From Rhodobacteraceae bacterium LMO-JJ12 (GTDB taxonomy: Bacteria > Pseudomonadota > Alphaproteobacteria > Rhodobacterales > Rhodobacteraceae), in NCBI GenBank assembly GCA_021555075.1, contig JAKGBX010000001.1:1488001-1552000 (forward strand): a DNA stretch of 64,000 nucleotides. Direction: 5' to 3'. Position 1 is the first letter of the stretch; each line of letters starts with the position of its first letter. This document shows positions 30,094 to 39,403 of the stretch, piece by piece. The translations under genes and the position numbers were made by a program. A model generated the notes under the pieces. It saw nothing but the letters and a program-made list of their open reading frames with translations. It did no database searches and was not told the origin of the DNA.

Positions 30094-30262
30094 AAGGCTG
30101 TTCCCATGGTTCAAGGTAATGCGGGGCCGTTATAGGAGCGCGCCCGGCGGGTTGGAAGCGGTTGCATGCGCAATGGCATGGGTTTTTGCGCGGGCGTGAC
30201 ATTTTGCGTAGTGACGATTCGGGTGTATCGTTTCGCGATTACACAAGAAAAGGTTGTTTGCG

Positions 30263-32164
30263 ATGTCGGTTTTTGCGCTGCGTTTGGGTGTGGTCATGGC
30301 GGTTTTGGCGGGATTGAGCGCCTGTGCGACGGCCAAGGGGCCATTTCGCAAGACCTTGTTAAGTGAGCCGGTTTGCGCAGAGCCGCATGATTTGCAGGCG
30401 GGCAATCAGGAGCTTGGAAAAGAGGAAAAGCGGCGTTGTGCCATGCAGCGACATTTGATGCCGGGTGCGGCAGAGGCACGGGCCAAGCGTGCGGAACTGG
30501 TGGCGGCGATTGCGCAGGCGCGGGCGGAGGCGGGCGAGGGCGAGGCGGTGGTGGTGACGGTTTCGGATCTGGCGATGCCGGATGAGGATTGGGTGGCGCT
30601 GGCAGATGTCAATGAGCGGGCGTTGCAGCGCAGCGATGAATACGATCTGGCGTTTGTCGAGTTGGCGGATGATGGATCGCTGGATCTACCCTGGCAGTTG
30701 CAGGCGGTGAAGGCGCATCTGGATCGTCAGGATAAGGCAGGCGTGCAGAATTACGTGGTCGCCTATGTGCACGGATGGCGTCACAATGCCGAGCTGCGCG
30801 ATGGGGATGTGCGCAAGTTTCGCCGGATGCTGGCCTATTCGCGCGCGGCGTTGAACACGCGTTGTGTGGCGGATGGCAGCTATTGCAATGCGGCAGTTAC
30901 CGGCGTGTTTATCGGCTGGAACGGGCAGCGGGTGAAAGAAGGGCCGTCGGATGAAAACCCGGACCAGGGCGCGCCGACAGGGTTGGAGAGTATCGGGCCG
31001 GCGCTGACCTTCTGGAACCGGTGGGATGTGAGTTGTCGGTTGGGGGGCGGACGGGGCAATTGCCAAGGCACGGTGCCGAAGAATTTCAAATCGCCCTTGC
31101 GGATGGTGTTGCGTGAGTTGCAGGGCGAGTTGTGGTTGCGCCCCGGCAATGCGGCGGCGGACAAGTTTCTGATTTTCGGGCACTCGATGGGCGGCAACAT
31201 GCTGGCCGAGATGCTGCGCGTGCAGGCAGAGGCCAAGGTGAAGCGCCATGTGCCGGGGCAAAGGATGACGCCGCTGGTGGGCGATCTGGTGGTGCTGCTC
31301 AACCCGGCGGCAGAGGCGGGGGCGTGGCTTGGAATTCAGCGGGCCGAGCGGGCGCGTGCCGGGTTGAAGGACAGCAATCGGCTGACCTGTTGGCAACCGG
31401 GGGGCGAGGCTGGTGAATGTCCTGAGCGCGCGGAATTGGCGCGGTGGTATCGACTTTACCCCAAGGAACAGCGTCCGATTTATGTTTCTCTGACATCAGC
31501 AGGGAACTGGGGGACGTTGAAGGCCAAGGACCGGGACGTTGAACATGATCTGGCGACGGGTGAAATTTTTCCCTTTGCGCGCAAGATAGAGGGCCAGCAG
31601 GCGCGCGAAAGGGTGGTGGCCATCGGGCATTATACGCCGGATTATGCCAGCCAGTTGGTGCTGCGGGGTGAAGCGGCGGGAACGTCGCATGAGGTGGCCG
31701 TTCTGGAGGGGGCGGTAGGCAAGAACACGCGTTATCTTTCGCGTTATCGCAATACCTCAAACCCCGAGGCGTCATGGTGCGCGCCTGCCGATGGCTGGCT
31801 GCGCGAGACGCGCGAGATGTGGTCGCAAAACGGCACGATTGCCAATTGGGATACCAGCTATCTTGGGGATGGGTCGCGCAAACAGGAATTGCCCAATATT
31901 GGTGGACCATTGAACAAGGCGCGTATTCAGTGGCGTCAGGGGATGAACCTGAAAGGTAATCTGGGGGCCTTGAGCGTGTCGCCGGGGACCAGCCCGTTTT
32001 GGAATACCCGCGCGCTGGATACGGCGATTAGAGGGCATGCGGGTTGGGCCAATTATGCGACGTGGTGCGCGCTCAACCAGATGGTTTTGGATGATGTGAC
32101 GGGGCCGGGGCGCCGGCCGGTGGTGACGGCAGAGGTTGAGGCAGTTTCAGGGGGCGGAAATTGA
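30263..32164 (+). CDS. Alpha/beta-hydrolase lipoprotein
   Basis: A 633-residue predicted lipoprotein. The N-terminal signal ends in LSAC with Cys21 as the lipid site. The nucleophile elbow GHSMGG carries Ser308, and an earlier YVVAYVHGWRHN segment (about 164-175) looks like the oxyanion strand of DUF900-type serine hydrolases. The rest has many Trp and paired Cys. The ATG at 30263 is nine bases after AAAAGG; a TTG at 30254 in frame is unlikely. The substrate is unknown. It probably acts at the outer or inner membrane surface facing the periplasm. Confidence 0.75.
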   Translation: MSVFALRLGVVMAVLAGLSACATAKGPFRKTLLSEPVCAEPHDLQAGNQELGKEEKRRCAMQRHLMPGAAEARAKRAELVAAIAQARAEAGEGEAVVVTVSDLAMPDEDWVALADVNERALQRSDEYDLAFVELADDGSLDLPWQLQAVKAHLDRQDKAGVQNYVVAYVHGWRHNAELRDGDVRKFRRMLAYSRAALNTRCVADGSYCNAAVTGVFIGWNGQRVKEGPSDENPDQGAPTGLESIGPALTFWNRWDVSCRLGGGRGNCQGTVPKNFKSPLRMVLRELQGELWLRPGNAAADKFLIFGHSMGGNMLAEMLRVQAEAKVKRHVPGQRMTPLVGDLVVLLNPAAEAGAWLGIQRAERARAGLKDSNRLTCWQPGGEAGECPERAELARWYRLYPKEQRPIYVSLTSAGNWGTLKAKDRDVEHDLATGEIFPFARKIEGQQARERVVAIGHYTPDYASQLVLRGEAAGTSHEVAVLEGAVGKNTRYLSRYRNTSNPEASWCAPADGWLRETREMWSQNGTIANWDTSYLGDGSRKQELPNIGGPLNKARIQWRQGMNLKGNLGALSVSPGTSPFWNTRALDTAIRGHAGWANYATWCALNQMVLDDVTGPGRRPVVTAEVEAVSGGGN

Positions 32165-32511: not shown

Positions 32512-33201
32512 TCAGGCCTTGAGTGGGGAAATCGCCAGAAATCCCGCCTCGCAGAAATCGAGCAGGGTTTCGATCATTTGCGTCGGGGTGGCGTTGCCGT
32601 CTGAAATTCCCTCCTGATCTCTTCCAAGTGTTTCGATGCGCCCGAGCGAGGCGCAGATCGAGAGCATGGACGAGACCATGAAGACGAAACATGCGCCGAT
32701 CTGAGAACGCGAGGCGTTGGGCAGGAGGCGGCGGATTTCGGTGATGAAAATCTCGACCGTTGGGTCAAAGCAGCGTGCGGCAATCTCGCGCCAGCGCTCG
32801 TCGGTGGAGACATGGGCGATCAGACGGCCATAGGCGCGCCAATGGGCTCCACCCTCAAAAACCTGGTGCAGGAAGGGTTCAAGAAAGCAGGCAAGCACCG
32901 AGCGCAGATCGAGCGGGCCGAGTTCCTCGCGTGCTGCGAGGGCATTGACACGCAGGTGTGAGAGCGGTTCGGCGCGCCGTGCAACCACGGTAAAGAAAAG
33001 CTCATCCTTGCTGCCGCCATGGTGGTTTACCAGCGCGGTTTGCACTCCGGCGCGTGCGGCAATGTCGCGAATCGAAGCACCATCGAATCCATGTTCGGAA
33101 AACACCGCCTCGGCCGCATCAAGAATGCGCGCGCGGGTTTCAAGCGAGCGTTTGCTGGGGGCGCGTTGGCGTTGTTTTTGCTTGGTGTTTAACATCTTCA
33201 C
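32512..33201 (-). CDS. TetR-family regulator divergent from the monooxygenase operon
   Basis: A 229-residue TetR repressor with a basic N-terminal tail, the helix-turn-helix at about residues 45-66 (GVQTALVNHHGGSKDELFF) and a DUF1956/CecR-like C-terminal half. The recognition helix ends in NHHGGSK rather than the usual YYHF, which is typical of that subgroup. ATG 33201 and ATG 33195 are both possible starts. A perfect inverted repeat at 33220-33235, just outside this gene, is its likely operator. Control of the operon at 33274-37212 is inferred from that layout. Confidence 0.9.
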   Translation of the reverse strand: MKMLNTKQKQRQRAPSKRSLETRARILDAAEAVFSEHGFDGASIRDIAARAGVQTALVNHHGGSKDELFFTVVARRAEPLSHLRVNALAAREELGPLDLRSVLACFLEPFLHQVFEGGAHWRAYGRLIAHVSTDERWREIAARCFDPTVEIFITEIRRLLPNASRSQIGACFVFMVSSMLSICASLGRIETLGRDQEGISDGNATPTQMIETLLDFCEAGFLAISPLKA

Positions 33202-33219
33202 AAAAGAGCTTGCCTTATT

Positions 33220-33235
33220 TTGAACGCTCGTTCAA
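33220..33235. promoter_or_regulatory. Probable TetR operator
   Basis: TTGAACG-CT-CGTTCAA is a perfect 7-bp inverted repeat with a 2-bp spacer in the 72-bp divergent gap between the TetR gene and the monooxygenase gene. Size, symmetry and place are those of a TetR site controlling both directions. Confidence 0.75.
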
Positions 33236-33273
33236 TCTAATTGTAACGGGAGACGGAAGAACAGGGTGGAAAT

Positions 33274-34620
33274 ATGCCGGAGTCGTTGAGGGGGGCGCCC
33301 GCCGAGGGGGGTGTGGAGAAATTCGCGTTGATCGGGGCGGGGCCGATGGGGTTGGCCATGGCCAAGGTGCTGCGTGAGCAGGGGATTGCGTTTCAGGGGT
33401 TTGAGCTGCATTCCGATGTCGGGGGCCTGTGGGATATCGATGCGCCGCGGTCGACAATGTATGAAAGCGCGCATCTGATTTCGTCAAAGAAGATGACCGA
33501 GTTTGACGATTTTCCGATGCGTGAAGAGGTGGCGGAATACCCCTCGCACCGGGAAATGAAGCGTTACTTTCAGGAATTTGCCGAGCGGTTTGATATCTAT
33601 CGTGACTATGCGTTTGGTTGCGAGGTGTTGAGCGCCGAGCCAAAGGGGGCGGATGGCGAAGGCTGGGTGGTGCGTTGGCGAGACGGCGAAGGGCATGAGC
33701 AAAGCGGCGAATTTGCCGGGGTCATGATCGCCAATGGCACGCTTTCAGAGCCGAATATTCCCGAGTTTGAGGGCGAATTCACCGGTGAGTTGATCCATGC
33801 CTCGCAGTATCGCAGCGCGCGGCAGTTTGACGGCAAGCGGGTGTTGATCGTGGGGGCGGGCAATTCCGGCTGCGACATCGCGGTGGATGCGATTCACCAC
33901 GGGGAAAGCTGTGATTTGTCGATGCGGCGCGGCTATTATTTTGTGCCGAAATACGTGTTTGGCAAACCGGCGGACACGATGGGCGGGGCGATCAAGCTGC
34001 CGATGTGGCTCAAGCGTCGGGTTGATGGGATGATCCTGAAATGGTTCGTCGGCGACCCGCAGAAATATGGCTTCCCCAAGCCCGATTACGCGCTTTACGA
34101 GAGCCACCCGGTGGTCAATTCGCTGATCCTGTTTCATGCCGGGCATGGGGATCTGAAGGTGCGGCCCGATATCGCGCGCCTTGACGGGAACGTGGTGCAT
34201 TTCACCGATGGGAGCAGCGGTGAGTATGACATGATCCTGACGGCGACGGGGTATCTGCTGCACTATCCGTTCATCGACAAGGCGTTGCTGAATTGGCAGG
34301 GCGATGCGCCGCATCTTTATCTCAACGCCATGCACCCCGAGCGCGATGATCTGTTCGTTCTGGGGATGGTCGAGGCGTCGGGGCTGGGATGGCAGGGGCG
34401 TCATGAGCAGGCGGAAATGGTGGCGCGTTACATTAGCGGATTGAAAGCCGGGAATGCGGCGGCGCGCCAGATCAAGGAGGAGAAGGCGCGCGGGTTTGAT
34501 CGTGCAACGGGTGGGATGAATTATCTTAACGTGGCGCGCATGGCCTATTACGTTGACAAGGCGACCTATCGCAACGCCGTCACCGGCTGGATCAAGGCGC
34601 TGTCACGGGGGGCGGCATGA
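33274..34620 (+). CDS. Flavin-containing monooxygenase
   Basis: A 448-residue class B flavoprotein monooxygenase that should use NADPH and O2. The FAD motif GAGPMG is at 21-26, the FMO signature FxGxxxHxxxY is Phe169...His175...Tyr179, and the NADPH motif GAGNSG is at 194-199. A Tyr at the last signature position points to an FMO (N- or S-oxygenating) rather than a classic Baeyer-Villiger enzyme, though the border is not strict. A C-terminal ATGYLLHYP block is also typical. It is the first gene of a four-gene overlapping operon. The substrate is unknown. Confidence 0.9.
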   Translation: MPESLRGAPAEGGVEKFALIGAGPMGLAMAKVLREQGIAFQGFELHSDVGGLWDIDAPRSTMYESAHLISSKKMTEFDDFPMREEVAEYPSHREMKRYFQEFAERFDIYRDYAFGCEVLSAEPKGADGEGWVVRWRDGEGHEQSGEFAGVMIANGTLSEPNIPEFEGEFTGELIHASQYRSARQFDGKRVLIVGAGNSGCDIAVDAIHHGESCDLSMRRGYYFVPKYVFGKPADTMGGAIKLPMWLKRRVDGMILKWFVGDPQKYGFPKPDYALYESHPVVNSLILFHAGHGDLKVRPDIARLDGNVVHFTDGSSGEYDMILTATGYLLHYPFIDKALLNWQGDAPHLYLNAMHPERDDLFVLGMVEASGLGWQGRHEQAEMVARYISGLKAGNAAARQIKEEKARGFDRATGGMNYLNVARMAYYVDKATYRNAVTGWIKALSRGAA

Positions 34621-35519
34621 ACGATATCGACACGGTTGCGCTGAACTTCAGCCCGGCGAGCCTGATGGCGTTGAACGGGGTTCTGGCGATTGTGATGTTT
34701 TCGGTCGCGCTGGATCTGCGGATTGCAGATTTCGGACGGTTGATGAAAGCGCCAAAGCCGCTTTTGACCGGGATCATCTCGCAATTTCTGCTGCTGCCGG
34801 CGCTGACCTTTGGGTTGGTGATGGTGATGCAGCCGCAGGCCTCGATTGCGCTGGGGCTGATCCTTGTGGCGGCTTGTCCGGGGGGCAATATCTCAAACTA
34901 TATTACCCATCGCGCCGGGGGGAATACCGCGCTGTCAGTGTCGTTGACGGCGTTTACCACGGTGGGGGCGATTGTGCTGACACCGCTTAATATTGCGTTC
35001 TGGGGGAACCTCTATGGCCCGTCGCGCGAGATTTTGCAGGCGATCAAGATTGATCCGGTGCAGGTGGCGATTACGGTGATCCTGATGCTGCTGTTGCCGC
35101 TATTGGCGGGCATTGTTCTCAATGAACGGCGTAGGTTTCTGGCGATGCGGCTCAGGGCGCTGATGCAGAAACTCTCATTGGTGATATTCGTCGCCTTCAT
35201 CGTGTTGGCATTACAGGCGAATTGGGCGTTTTTCCTTGGGTATGCGCATCATGTTGCACTGCTTGTGTTCTTGCATAATGCGCTGGCGCTGGCCGGGGGG
35301 TATGGCATTGCCAGCCTTGTGGGGCTGTCGGAATTTGATCGCCGTTCGGTGACGATTGAAACGGGGATTCAGAATTCCGGTCTTGGGCTGATCCTGATTT
35401 TCGGGTTCTTTGGCGGGCTTGGCGGGATGGCCGTGGTGGCCGCGTTCTGGGGCATCTGGCACGCAATCTCGGGCATTGCATTGGCGCGGATCATGTCGCG
35501 CACGGTGGCTGCGCAATGA
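34617..35519 (+). CDS. SBF-type (bile acid:sodium symporter family) transporter
   Basis: A 300-residue membrane protein with about nine or ten helices of the SBF/NTCP fold. The VAACPGGNISNYITHRAGGN block is the conserved sodium- and substrate-binding crossover, and a second conserved block is ETGIQNSGLGLILIF. Bacterial members carry organic acids, sulfonates or pantoate-like compounds, so the family name does not fix the substrate. Its ATG overlaps the monooxygenase stop by four bases (ATGA), which suggests it imports the compound the operon handles. Confidence 0.88.
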   Translation: MNDIDTVALNFSPASLMALNGVLAIVMFSVALDLRIADFGRLMKAPKPLLTGIISQFLLLPALTFGLVMVMQPQASIALGLILVAACPGGNISNYITHRAGGNTALSVSLTAFTTVGAIVLTPLNIAFWGNLYGPSREILQAIKIDPVQVAITVILMLLLPLLAGIVLNERRRFLAMRLRALMQKLSLVIFVAFIVLALQANWAFFLGYAHHVALLVFLHNALALAGGYGIASLVGLSEFDRRSVTIETGIQNSGLGLILIFGFFGGLGGMAVVAAFWGIWHAISGIALARIMSRTVAAQ

Positions 35520-36445
35520 GGCGTGTATTGGTGACAGGAGCCGCCGGGGCAGTGGGCACGGCACTGCTTGGTGAACTTGCCGCGAGTGACTGGGACGTGA
35601 TTGCGACGGATGTGCAGGAACCACGCATGCTGCCCGAGGGCGTTCGGTTCTTGGTGATGGACGTGCGCGGCGGGGATGTTGACCGGGTGATCGGTGAGGT
35701 GCGGCCCGAAGTGGTGGTGCATCTGGCCTCGATTGTGTCGCCGACGACACGCGAATTTGCCCATTCGGTCGATGTTGTGGGGTCACGCAATGTGATTGAC
35801 GCCTGTGTAATGCATGGCGTGCGGCGGTTGGTGGTGACCTCGTCGGGGGCGGCTTATGGCTATCACGCCGACAACCCGGTGCCGCTGCGCGAAAGCGACC
35901 CGGTGCGCGGCAATGTCGAGTTCGCCTATTCCGATCACAAGCGGCAGGTCGAGGAGATGCTGACCGAGGCGCGTGTGGCGCATCCGGCGCTGGAGCAGGT
36001 GGTCTTGCGGGTCGGGACGGTGTTGGGCGAAGGGTTGGAGAACCAGATCACGGCGCTGTTTCACAAGCCGCGCCTGTTGGCGCTGAGAGGCAGCGACAGC
36101 CCGTTCGTGTTCATCTGGACGCGTGATCTGGCGCGTATCCTGCGGCGTGCGGCGGGCGATGGTCCGGCGGGGATTTTCAACGTGGCGGGCGATGGCGCGT
36201 TGGGGGTTGATGATCTGGCCAAGGCGCTGGGCAAACCGGTTTTGCGGTTGCCGGTCTGGGCCGTGAAGCTGGGGCTTGGGGTCGCGAAACCTTTGCGCTT
36301 GTCGCGATATGGGCCGGAGCAGGTGCGCTTTTTGCAATATCGCCCGGTGTTGGATAACACGGCGCTGAAGGGCGAGTTTGGCTATGTGCCGGAGTTGAGC
36401 AGCGCCGAAGTGTTTGATCTCTGGCGCAAGGCGGCGGGGCTGTGA
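35516..36445 (+). CDS. NAD-dependent epimerase/dehydratase (extended SDR)
   Basis: A 309-residue extended short-chain dehydrogenase. The nucleotide motif GAAGAVG is at 8-14, the catalytic pair is Tyr138 and Lys142 (YSDHK), and TSSGAAYG supplies the serine region at about 109-115. The C-terminal half is long enough for a sugar or sterol-like ligand. Overlap with the transporter stop is four bases (ATGA). It could act on a sugar nucleotide or, in this catabolic-looking context, on a 3-hydroxy compound such as a steroid. Confidence 0.88.
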   Translation: MRRVLVTGAAGAVGTALLGELAASDWDVIATDVQEPRMLPEGVRFLVMDVRGGDVDRVIGEVRPEVVVHLASIVSPTTREFAHSVDVVGSRNVIDACVMHGVRRLVVTSSGAAYGYHADNPVPLRESDPVRGNVEFAYSDHKRQVEEMLTEARVAHPALEQVVLRVGTVLGEGLENQITALFHKPRLLALRGSDSPFVFIWTRDLARILRRAAGDGPAGIFNVAGDGALGVDDLAKALGKPVLRLPVWAVKLGLGVAKPLRLSRYGPEQVRFLQYRPVLDNTALKGEFGYVPELSSAEVFDLWRKAAGL

Positions 36446-37212
36446 GCAAGACGGCGGTGATCACTGGCGGGGCCGGGGGGATGGGATTGGCGCTTGACGC
36501 GGGATTGCGCGCACGCGGCTGGCGCACGGTTCTGATTGATCTGCCGGGGCAAGCGTTGGAGGCATTGGAACCCATGGCAGAGCGCAAGGTTCTGGCCTGC
36601 GATCTGTGCGATGGGGCGGCGATGCGGGCGGTTTGTGACGGGCTGCGCAAAGACTGTGCGTCGATTGATCTGGTGATTTACAATGCCGGGATCACGCAGG
36701 TTGGGGCGTTTGACGCGCTGTCGGAGGCGGCGCATCGAAAGGTTTTTGAAATCAACTATTTCGCGGCCACCAACATGGCGCGTGAACTTTTGGAGGATGT
36801 GCGGGCGGCGCGCGGTATTCATCTGGTGATGTCGTCGGTTGCGGGTTTTTCGCCGCTGATTCACAGGACCGCCTATGCGGCGAGCAAACACGCGCTGGAA
36901 GGGTTTATGAAATCGCTGCGCTCGGAAGAAAAGGCGTTTGGCGTCAGGTGCCTGATTGCGGCCCCAAGCTTTGTGGCGACCAATATCGGCAGGGCGGATG
37001 AGCAGGCCGATGGAACCTCGCGCCCCGGATCGGCAAGCGATGGAATCGACGTGATGTCACCCCAAGCGGCGGCGGAGGTGATCCTGCGCGGGGTTGAGAG
37101 AGAGCGTGATTTCATACCTGTGGGGCGCATGGCGCGGATTGCGTCATTGGTAAACCGGCTTTCTCCTGCGCTGTATCAACGCTTGATGGAGCGTAGTGTC
37201 AGGCAGCGGTAG
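36442..37212 (+). CDS. Short-chain dehydrogenase/reductase
   Basis: A 256-residue classical SDR with TGGAGGMG at 8-15, NAG at 81-83, and the Ser132, Tyr145, Lys149 triad (TAYAASKHA). The start is GTG at 36442, forming a GTGA overlap with the epimerase stop. It ends the four-gene operon and probably oxidises or reduces an alcohol/ketone formed by the partner enzymes. The C-terminal LSPALYQRLMER region is typical of DltE/YqjQ-like SDRs that handle bulky substrates. The substrate is unknown. Confidence 0.9.
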   Translation: MSKTAVITGGAGGMGLALDAGLRARGWRTVLIDLPGQALEALEPMAERKVLACDLCDGAAMRAVCDGLRKDCASIDLVIYNAGITQVGAFDALSEAAHRKVFEINYFAATNMARELLEDVRAARGIHLVMSSVAGFSPLIHRTAYAASKHALEGFMKSLRSEEKAFGVRCLIAAPSFVATNIGRADEQADGTSRPGSASDGIDVMSPQAAAEVILRGVERERDFIPVGRMARIASLVNRLSPALYQRLMERSVRQR

Positions 37213-37298: not shown

Positions 37299-38204
37299 TT
37301 ACTTCGTCGGTGGCCAATTCAGGGCGATACCATGCGCCGCGGCCAGGTCGGCTTGGGTTTGTGTGAGCGGCTGGTAGGACACGAATTCGCTACCCGAGCA
37401 GGCGGGCAGGCCCAGGGCCGCGATCAAAGGTGCGTCGTAGTGGCCGGACAACAGCAGGATGCCTTCGCGCGCCAAGTGGTCGCGCGTGCCTTTGCCTTTG
37501 TCGGATCGGATGCGCCGCATGAAGTCTTGCTGTTGCGCCACGGCTTCGACCACGTCGCGGGTGATGGGTTGGCGTTGAACCTCGCGGAACAGATTGGCCA
37601 TACGATGATTGCCGGATTGCCCCGCGAAAATACGCGCGATTACATCGGCCGGCACGGTGCGCCAGAAATTCGGCGGGTAGGGGTGGTCACGCAACAGCCA
37701 AAGTATGTTGGCGAATCCCGACGCCGAGACGCTTTTCTTGGAATCCTTGTTCTGGCCGAGGGTCAGGTATTGGGGGCGCGCCACGATCAGGCCGAGATAG
37801 CATTTTGCCCGCACTTCGTCGGCGGCCACCAGAATGCAGGGGTGGTCGATGGCCTCGGTCGGAATCATCCAGTTGCTGCCCATGGTGTTCTTGATGTCCA
37901 CATCGTGTCCGAGAATGACGGTATCGAGCTTGCCTTTGGGCAGGCGCAGCATGGCGCGTAGTTCAATTTCGACGCGGGTGCCGATGTAGGTTTTTTCGGT
38001 TTTTTCCAGTTCGTCATAGGAGCGCCGCCCGGTTTTCGGGGTCATGATCACGTCGTCAACGCATTGGCGCAGCATGGCGGAGAACCTGGTCGCCAAAGCC
38101 GCACCCCCGCCAGCGCGCCGAGTGATTTCATCGCCGATTGCGCTCAGCAGGGTGTGATCGCGGTGGCCCGCGATGACCATGCTATCTGGAATGGTTTTCT
38201 TCAA
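37299..38204 (-). CDS. NaeI-like type IIE restriction endonuclease
   Basis: A 301-residue protein resembling NaeI, which cuts GCCGGC only when a second site occupies its C-terminal domain. The catalytic layout Asp94 (KLDTVILG), Asp103 and Lys105 (DVDIKNTMGSNW) repeats the spacing of NaeI Asp86, Asp95, Lys97, with an upstream Glu at 79 or 81 (RVEIELR). Residues about 170-301 would be the second DNA-binding (Topo-like) domain. The start is unsettled: TTG 38204, or ATG 38180. It lies 67 bases after its methyltransferase. Confidence 0.82.
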   Translation of the reverse strand: MKKTIPDSMVIAGHRDHTLLSAIGDEITRRAGGGAALATRFSAMLRQCVDDVIMTPKTGRRSYDELEKTEKTYIGTRVEIELRAMLRLPKGKLDTVILGHDVDIKNTMGSNWMIPTEAIDHPCILVAADEVRAKCYLGLIVARPQYLTLGQNKDSKKSVSASGFANILWLLRDHPYPPNFWRTVPADVIARIFAGQSGNHRMANLFREVQRQPITRDVVEAVAQQQDFMRRIRSDKGKGTRDHLAREGILLLSGHYDAPLIAALGLPACSGSEFVSYQPLTQTQADLAAAHGIALNWPPTK

Positions 38205-38271
38205 ATTGCCCGCAGCCCTGTGAAACCGTTGTTTACCGGCAAGCTGTCACAAGTGGGAGGGCTTGGGAAGT

Positions 38272-39231
38272 TCAGCCGTTGACGGCGCGCAGCACCCGCT
38301 TGCGCAGAGCTTTGGCGATCTGCGCCGATACGGCCTGAGCGACGGGGGGCGGAAAGGCGTTGCCGACCTGCCGATAGGCGTTGGTCTTGGCGCCTGTAAA
38401 ATGCCAGTCGTCCGGGAAGCCTTGGATGCGAGCCACCATTGGCACCGTCAGGCGCGGCATGCCGATGTGCGAGGGGTCGGGGGCTTCGGGCGCAATGGTG
38501 CGCCCTTCGACACCCAGCGTGGCCCATGCGGCGCGCGCACGGGTGGGGCCAAGATCGGGGCCGCCGTGTTTCTTGGAGCCGCCCACGATGGTCGGGGCAA
38601 TTTCGTCGGCCTTTGCAGCCCAGTCGTCGGCACCGCGCCAGCCGCGCGCGGCCATGAGATCGCGCAGGGTTTCGCCAACGGTGGGCGGGTTGTGCGGATT
38701 GGGCTCTGGCCAGTCAAAGAAGTCTGCACGCTCCTTTTGAACCGCCACAATCACCACGCGCGGGCGCAGTTGCGGCACGCCATAATCTGATGCATTGAGA
38801 AGCCGCCAATCGGTCTTGTAGCCCAGCTTGTCGAGCTGCTTTTTCAGCCGTTCGCGATAGTCGTGGAATACAGCGTCGAGAAATCCGCGCACGTTTTCAA
38901 TCATCACGGCGCGGGGGCGGGCGGCATCTACAATGTCGATGGCATCGTTGAACAGGTTGCGTTCGTCCTGCTCGCCCAGCTGTTTGCCGGCGACGGAAAA
39001 GGGCGGGCAAGGTAGGCCACCGGCCAACAGGTCCATGCCCTTGTAATCAGCGGCGCGCTCCTTGAAGAGTCGCATGTCTTCTTCGAGGACATTCCATTCG
39101 GGGCGATTGTGGCGCAGCGTGTTGCAGCAGTGTTTGTCGATCTCGACCAGCGCGGTGTGGGCGAATCCGGCTTTTTCCAGCCCGAGGGCCTGACCGCCGG
39201 CACCGGCGCAAAGTTCTACGGATGTCAGCAT
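38272..39231 (-). CDS. DNA cytosine-5 methyltransferase of the NaeI-like system
   Basis: A 319-residue C5 methyltransferase with motif I (ELCAGAGGQALGLE), the catalytic GLPCPPFSVAG with Cys75, the ENVRG motif IV, and the C-terminal RQVGNAFPPPVAQAV motifs IX-X. The target recognition region is about 180-260. It should protect the sites cut by the adjacent nuclease, probably GCCGGC by analogy. ATG 39231 gives the family start MLTSVELCAG; the frame opens eight codons earlier. Transcribed first, before the nuclease, as expected for safe establishment. Confidence 0.9.
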   Translation of the reverse strand: MLTSVELCAGAGGQALGLEKAGFAHTALVEIDKHCCNTLRHNRPEWNVLEEDMRLFKERAADYKGMDLLAGGLPCPPFSVAGKQLGEQDERNLFNDAIDIVDAARPRAVMIENVRGFLDAVFHDYRERLKKQLDKLGYKTDWRLLNASDYGVPQLRPRVVIVAVQKERADFFDWPEPNPHNPPTVGETLRDLMAARGWRGADDWAAKADEIAPTIVGGSKKHGGPDLGPTRARAAWATLGVEGRTIAPEAPDPSHIGMPRLTVPMVARIQGFPDDWHFTGAKTNAYRQVGNAFPPPVAQAVSAQIAKALRKRVLRAVNG

Positions 39232-39403
39232 GTTGCCCGCCCTCTTTTCGCACATACAACGCGTTGTGGTCGCCTAGATCAACAGGCGACTCGACGTTGC
39301 ATGAATGTTCCTAATTCGTTCTTACTTGCTTTGGGCAGGTCGGGCAAGCCCGGGCGGGTGGCAATCTGTTGCCCCGTCGCTATCCCAGCGTCAGAAACAG
39401 AAA

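Follow-up and report, generated by a model that had tools for sequence, protein, structure and literature searches.

A conserved TetR-linked operon encoding a flavin monooxygenase, an SBF-family carrier and two short-chain dehydrogenases in Rhodobacteraceae bacterium LMO-JJ12

Four overlapping genes and a probable operator that tracks TetR

The window analysed here is a 64,000-nt stretch of the genome of Rhodobacteraceae bacterium LMO-JJ12 (contig JAKGBX010000001.1, positions 1,488,001 to 1,552,000), in which a class B flavin-containing monooxygenase (FMO), an SBF-family carrier (SBF), an extended short-chain dehydrogenase/reductase (EPI) and a classical one (SDR) are encoded head to tail and face a divergent TetR-family gene (Table 1). 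Re-reading the sequence placed all five genes where the original prediction had them and recovered its three 4-bp junctions, namely ATGA at 34617-34620 (FMO/SBF), ATGA at 35516-35519 (SBF/EPI) and GTGA at 36442-36445 (EPI/SDR). Overlaps of exactly 4 bp are kept at these junctions in 85 of 95, 97 of 99 and 88 of 100 relatives, respectively. Searches with simple consensus sequences matched no promoter or terminator at the expected places of the operon. Directly downstream and convergent to it lie genes for a NaeI-type restriction endonuclease and a C5-cytosine methyltransferase (37299-39255, minus strand), and at 30254-32164 on the plus strand lies a gene for a protein of 636 aa that begins like a lipoprotein and for which Pfam, NCBIfam and PADLOC gave no match.

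Table 1. Features of the operon and its regulator (positions within the window)
Feature	Position	Strand	Basis or remark
TetR-family repressor (TetR_N + TetR_C_30)	32512..33201	-	Pfam; start GTG 33201 or ATG 33195
Probable TetR operator, TTGAACG-CT-CGTTCAA	33220..33235		family consensus TTGAACRnnYGTTCAA
Class B flavin-containing monooxygenase (FMO)	33274..34620	+	PF00743, 5.2e-50
SBF/BASS (SLC10-like) Na+-coupled organic-anion carrier (SBF)	34617..35519	+	PF01758, 6.7e-34
Extended SDR, 'NAD-dependent epimerase/3beta-HSD' type (EPI)	35516..36445	+	PF01370, 4.5e-25
Classical SDR, probable NAD-dependent dehydrogenase (SDR)	36442..37212	+	PF00106, 2.2e-36

The element between the operon and the TetR gene had been described as a perfect palindrome. 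Comparison of TTGAACGCTCGTTCAA with its reverse complement, TTGAACGAGCGTTCAA, corrected this description to an inverted repeat with two 7-bp arms that match perfectly and a non-palindromic CT at its centre. The repeat lies upstream of both genes, at 38 bp from the FMO start and 18 bp from the GTG start of TetR. The exact TTGAACGnnCGTTCAA occurs once in the 4.35-Mb genome and its sole copy with one mismatch lies within a thiolase gene, by which both a chance repeat and a genome-wide regulon were ruled out. In the relatives, 82 of 84 loci with TetR carry an operator-like site with at most 3 mismatches at the corresponding position, the other two having at most 4, and about 1.3% of shuffled regions reached the level of 3 or fewer; none of the nine TetR-less loci in which the upstream region was present carried the site. 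Positions C6 and G11 of the operator are invariant, and its spacing to the FMO gene varies while its symmetry is retained. The regulator itself combines a TetR_N domain with a palindromic operator nearby, as expected of the family; its nearest solved relative is NicR, and a divergent TetR gene is retained in 68 of the 76 relatives with enough flank. The presence of the site tracks that of TetR, and this co-variation indicates strongly, though indirectly, that TetR would bind the repeat and repress its own gene as well as the operon.

Conservation of the module and its optional companions

Distribution was assessed in 199 Rhodobacteraceae genomes, one per genus. An EPI ortholog was detected in 22 of them at 65-77% identity, the next best match falling sharply to 31%, and the FMO ortholog was present in exactly the same 22 genomes (Fisher 1e-29), with one further remote homolog at 43%. 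Orthologs of SBF were found in those 22 and in three more (L173, L174 and L175; 67-69%), where neither FMO nor EPI accompanies them; in L173 and L175 the carrier gene adjoins the same 291-294-aa protein, and these three loci gave no clue to the substrate. Scanning a single genome from each species yielded at least 577 encoded relatives, and among the best 80 are Rhodobacteraceae, Hoeflea, Mesorhizobium and Sneathiella-labelled genomes. Strains of Phaeobacter, Shimia and Sulfitobacter are among the carriers of the module. The order FMO-SBF-EPI-SDR is intact in 73 of the 76 relatives with enough flank. In the locus counts, those of overlaps and operator sites included, about six genomes were entered twice (under a G handle and as a named contig), so that unique numbers are slightly lower. 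Moreover, the four proteins show correlated pairwise distances, with a Mantel r of 0.46-0.71 against 0.22 or less in shuffles. Outside Alphaproteobacteria, the same order was found in L166 and the order SDR-FMO-SBF-EPI in L163 and L164, and a rearranged SBF-EPI-FMO set occurs within the class in L145 and L167; the versions in other classes, scrambled or in the same order, are 35-61% identical. The conserved neighbourhood sought by a check set beforehand was thus clearly found, across Alphaproteobacteria and beyond the class. All four families, enzymes and carrier alike, are generic ones, as accidental neighbours without a shared function might be, but the conservation of order, overlaps and co-occurrence across classes already refutes that explanation and leaves it practically no probability. 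A flanking copper ATPase, a HIBADH-like protein and a MalK-type ABC protein were rejected as parts of the module and judged inherited synteny, as they follow close relatives. A search for EPI on plasmids found none.

In some lineages further genes join the module. An orthologous CoA ligase (44-94% identical) is part of the operon in Hoeflea and Mesorhizobium, and a cluster of TRAP, MBL-fold and FAA-hydrolase genes adjoins the module in Mesorhizobium and Maritimibacter. Because the MBL protein of this cluster has an ortholog in only one of the 199 Rhodobacteraceae, and the module is missing from that genome, the neighbourhood is unlikely to be due to chance; the cluster is nevertheless an optional addition, which the window's genome lacks. 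The rare MBL/TRAP/TetR/FAA-hydrolase/CoA-ligase cluster was seen by the module in two distant lineages (L110:11695-20218 and L097:3-7608). The identification of an AraC regulator as GliR was dropped, its match being far below the cut-off.

Signatures of the carrier, the dehydrogenases and the monooxygenase

The SBF protein belongs to the BASS/SLC10 group by its domain score (117.7 vs a gathering score of 24.3) and aligns to bacterial ASBT, with the equivalents of the Na1 site (S93, N94, S107, T111 and E248) invariant. It thus shares the SBF fold family and all five Na1 residues with ASBT of Neisseria meningitidis and PanS, but scores below the cut-offs of the named models, that is 173.5 vs 326.3 for TIGR00841 (bass) and 120.3 vs 400 for PanS NF047939. 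No NCBIfam equivalog rose above its cut-off for FMO, SBF or EPI, which leaves all three at the level of their broad families. EPI carries the TGxxGxxG and YxxxK motifs of extended SDRs, with S109/S110, Y138 and K142 conserved; its structural model is of high confidence (pLDDT 94.9), its fold match is that of a generic epimerase, and none of the 20 listed NCBIfam equivalogs, for GalE or any other named epimerase or dehydrogenase, reached its cut-off; EPI is probably an NAD-dependent dehydrogenase or epimerase. The SDR displays TGGAGGMG at residues 8-15, conforming to TGxxxGxG, and the conserved N-S-Y-K set of classical SDRs (N105, S132, Y145 and K149). In these families an acidic residue at the end of the second strand favours NAD over NADP. 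Such residues, D32 and D33, end the second strand of the two dehydrogenases and suggest a preference for NAD in both and, therefore, that they would act as oxidants of their substrates.

The carrier and the SDR pair had also been proposed to fit a terpenoid or steroid-like ligand. If the ligand were a steroid, a bile-acid-like compound or a terpenoid acid, SBF would import it, the 3beta-HSD-like protein and the SDR would oxidise ring hydroxyls, and the FMO would open the ring. The SBF family name, a weak 3Beta_HSD match of EPI (2.8e-15) and, in L147, a BaiCD-like/OYE gene that lies about 5 kb away from EPI-SDR agree with such a ligand; against it, no named steroid model reaches its cut-off, the named family models scoring far below, no steroid-ring genes were seen among the annotated recurrent neighbours, and SBF proteins transport many other anions. 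Nothing specific favours this ligand, which we consider quite unlikely, and a steroid or bile reading drawn from the SBF name was rejected because no family match supports it. Slightly less probable still is a role in biosynthesis, or in detoxification and export, in which a small molecule would be made or disarmed by the enzymes and then exported through SBF, under the control of TetR. TetR regulators often control efflux, EPI has the fold of NDP-sugar epimerases, and FMOs occur within natural-product clusters; however, the carrier retains the Na+ sites of importers, the genes that join the module encode a CoA ligase, an FAA hydrolase and TRAP uptake proteins, and no biosynthetic core enzyme lies nearby.

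The FMO contains two GxGxxG motifs (G21-26 and G194-199) and the fingerprint F169-x-G171-x3-H175-x3-Y179, all invariant in relatives, which assigns it to the class B FMOs and bears out the FxGxxxHxxxY signature reported initially. The fingerprint FxGxxxHxxxW(P/D) of type I Baeyer-Villiger enzymes is not present, Y179 standing in place of W; the signature thereby excludes the classical type I Baeyer-Villiger motif but does not decide the chemistry. Two nucleotide-binding motifs and the fingerprint are common to the FMO, trimethylamine monooxygenase (Tmm) and other class B FMOs, but the score with the Tmm model NF058570 is 105.3 against a cut-off of 675 and the operon is different. In structure, the AlphaFold model (pLDDT 87) is closest to DiatB (PDB 8z12-8z17), the best match being 8z12 at 32% identity and a TM-score of 0.83; a literature search on DiatB gave nothing useful.

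The signature had further been taken to favour S/N-oxygenation, whereby the module would import an amine- or sulfur-bearing anion, the FMO would free N or S, and the SDRs would process the carbon remainder. Consistent with this are the FxGxxxHxxxY motif, fold matches to mammalian-type FMOs, to a pyrrolizidine-alkaloid N-oxygenase and to Tmm, and a remote homolog in Agrobacterium T29 that is fused to an amino-acid permease and adjoins dmm (dimethylamine monooxygenase) genes. However, the Tmm score is low, a thiamine diphosphate (ThDP) lyase takes the place of the FMO in three genomes, the companion genes encode a CoA ligase and an FAA hydrolase and not enzymes for amines or sulfur, and no regulator or transporter of the kind usual in N or S starvation is present. 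S/N-oxygenation is therefore unlikely; the lyase in those three genomes and the CoA ligases or FAA hydrolase that join other versions point rather to carbon catabolism. Two other importer-plus-FMO arrangements were observed. On a plasmid of Agrobacterium sp. T29 (L133:7519-10419), genes for an SDR, a further transporter and a PaaI thioesterase come after the FMO homolog-permease fusion, so that transporter, FMO and SDR are combined in a different way; on pSMR1-2 of Pseudosulfitobacter (L131:6313-13344), a branched-chain-type ABC importer precedes an epimerase and an FMO (33% identical).

Exchange of the monooxygenase and a proposed catabolic route

The FMO is missing from three close relatives (L051, L052 and L096), and a ThDP enzyme adjoins TetR or the EPI-SDR pair in L051, L052 and the more distant G435. 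At the genome level, G846, G847 and G435 encode the EPI-SDR pair with a neighbouring ThDP lyase and no FMO ortholog, SBF and TetR also being present in G846 and G847; at E<=1e-20, no FMO relative was found in G846 or G435, and G847 has only a 39% homolog elsewhere. These three genomes are all or mostly metagenome bins. The three lyases are 54-85% identical to each other and about 30% identical to other ThDP proteins near the module; the ThDP cluster c30 was therefore not treated as one group, since it holds two unrelated groups (~30% identical), and only L051, L052 and L147 were counted. In a class sample of 289 genomes the lyase occurs once, and there it adjoins EPI. It is absent from the window's genome, where the best match is 30%, and no such lyase was found in the FMO-less L096 or, outside the close group, in L146 and L171. 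In the latter two (L146:4322-10394 and L171:5866-11534), genes for the SDR, an MFS carrier and a secreted Vgb-lyase/SMP-30-like protein are linked with those for SBF and EPI, and L171 also has a TonB receptor. The ThDP family is very mixed and comprises acyloin synthases, decarboxylases and lyases; cyclohexane-1,2-dione hydrolase and 2-hydroxyacyl-CoA lyase type enzymes share its superfamily with the present lyase, but the nearest solved relative of the latter is BbmA.

Because the ThDP lyase stands in for the FMO in three genomes, the exchange suggests a role of the FMO in preparing C-C cleavage next to a carbonyl. This falls short of demonstrating the role, which we propose tentatively, at somewhat less than even chances; against it count that the exchange was seen in three genomes only, that the FMO-less L096, L146 and L171 have no such lyase, that the ThDP family is so mixed, and that the FMO has Y rather than the Baeyer-Villiger W. 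A more doubtful extension is a widespread, undescribed pathway of uptake and cleavage in which the Na+ carrier and the two dehydrogenases form a fixed core and the C-C cleaving step is exchangeable, served by the FMO in most lineages and by an O2-independent ThDP lyase in others.

The linkage, order and coupling overlaps of the genes are conserved, the operator tracks TetR, and the catalytic and Na+ sites are intact. The prediction of a TetR-controlled operon serving one import-and-modify pathway thus gains support from the conservation and from the operator tracking TetR, and we favour, by a modest degree of confidence, a TetR-repressed catabolic module by which an organic anion is imported, dehydrogenated and oxygenated. 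For this module we infer the direction (uptake and breakdown), the NAD preference, the order of steps and the part of the FMO in C-C cleavage rather than in N/S-oxygenation or another oxygenation. Without inducer, a TetR dimer on TTGAACGnnCGTTCAA between the divergent start codons would keep the operon and the TetR gene itself blocked; in the presence of the compound, TetR would let go and the four translationally coupled genes would be made together. SBF would then carry the organic anion in with Na+, EPI and SDR, as two NAD-dependent dehydrogenases, would oxidise or invert hydroxyl groups to give a ketone or hydroxyketone, and the FMO would insert oxygen, most likely beside that carbonyl, allowing the carbon skeleton to be cleaved and handed on, via the CoA ligase and the FAA-family hydrolase in some species. 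Counting against the catabolic reading, SBF-family carriers can export too, the fold match of EPI is generic, and the simple promoter and terminator consensus sequences found no match at the expected places.

Chn-type degradation of cyclohexanol and cyclohexanone employs an alcohol dehydrogenase and a flavin Baeyer-Villiger monooxygenase. The proposed module resembles it in that a dehydrogenase yields a ketone, a flavin monooxygenase oxygenates it and a dedicated regulator is present; it differs in that its FMO has Y not W, that its core operon is without lactonase, ADH and ALDH, and that the SBF carrier, the extended SDR and TetR are not in Chn. The Chn-type pairing of a Baeyer-Villiger enzyme with a lactone hydrolase is accordingly not seen, the core operon having no lactonase. 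The mymA operon of mycobacteria comprises an FMO, SDRs, an acyl-CoA ligase and a divergent AraC-type regulator. These components recall the module, but the gene families, their order and the AraC-type regulator differ. In agreement with the view that the set is not a described pathway, a search of open-licence literature, subscription papers lying outside its scope, found no paper describing it.

Collectively, none of the parts falls outside known families, and together they make up a new catabolic operon that is well conserved and familiar in kind. The conserved operator offers a ready reporter with which to find the inducing compound, and a testable hint at the chemistry comes from the exchange of FMO and lyase. 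The module is present in 22 of the 199 Rhodobacteraceae genera sampled, about one in nine, and extends to other classes of the phylum; therefore, the habitats of these bacteria would contain some compound common enough to maintain it.
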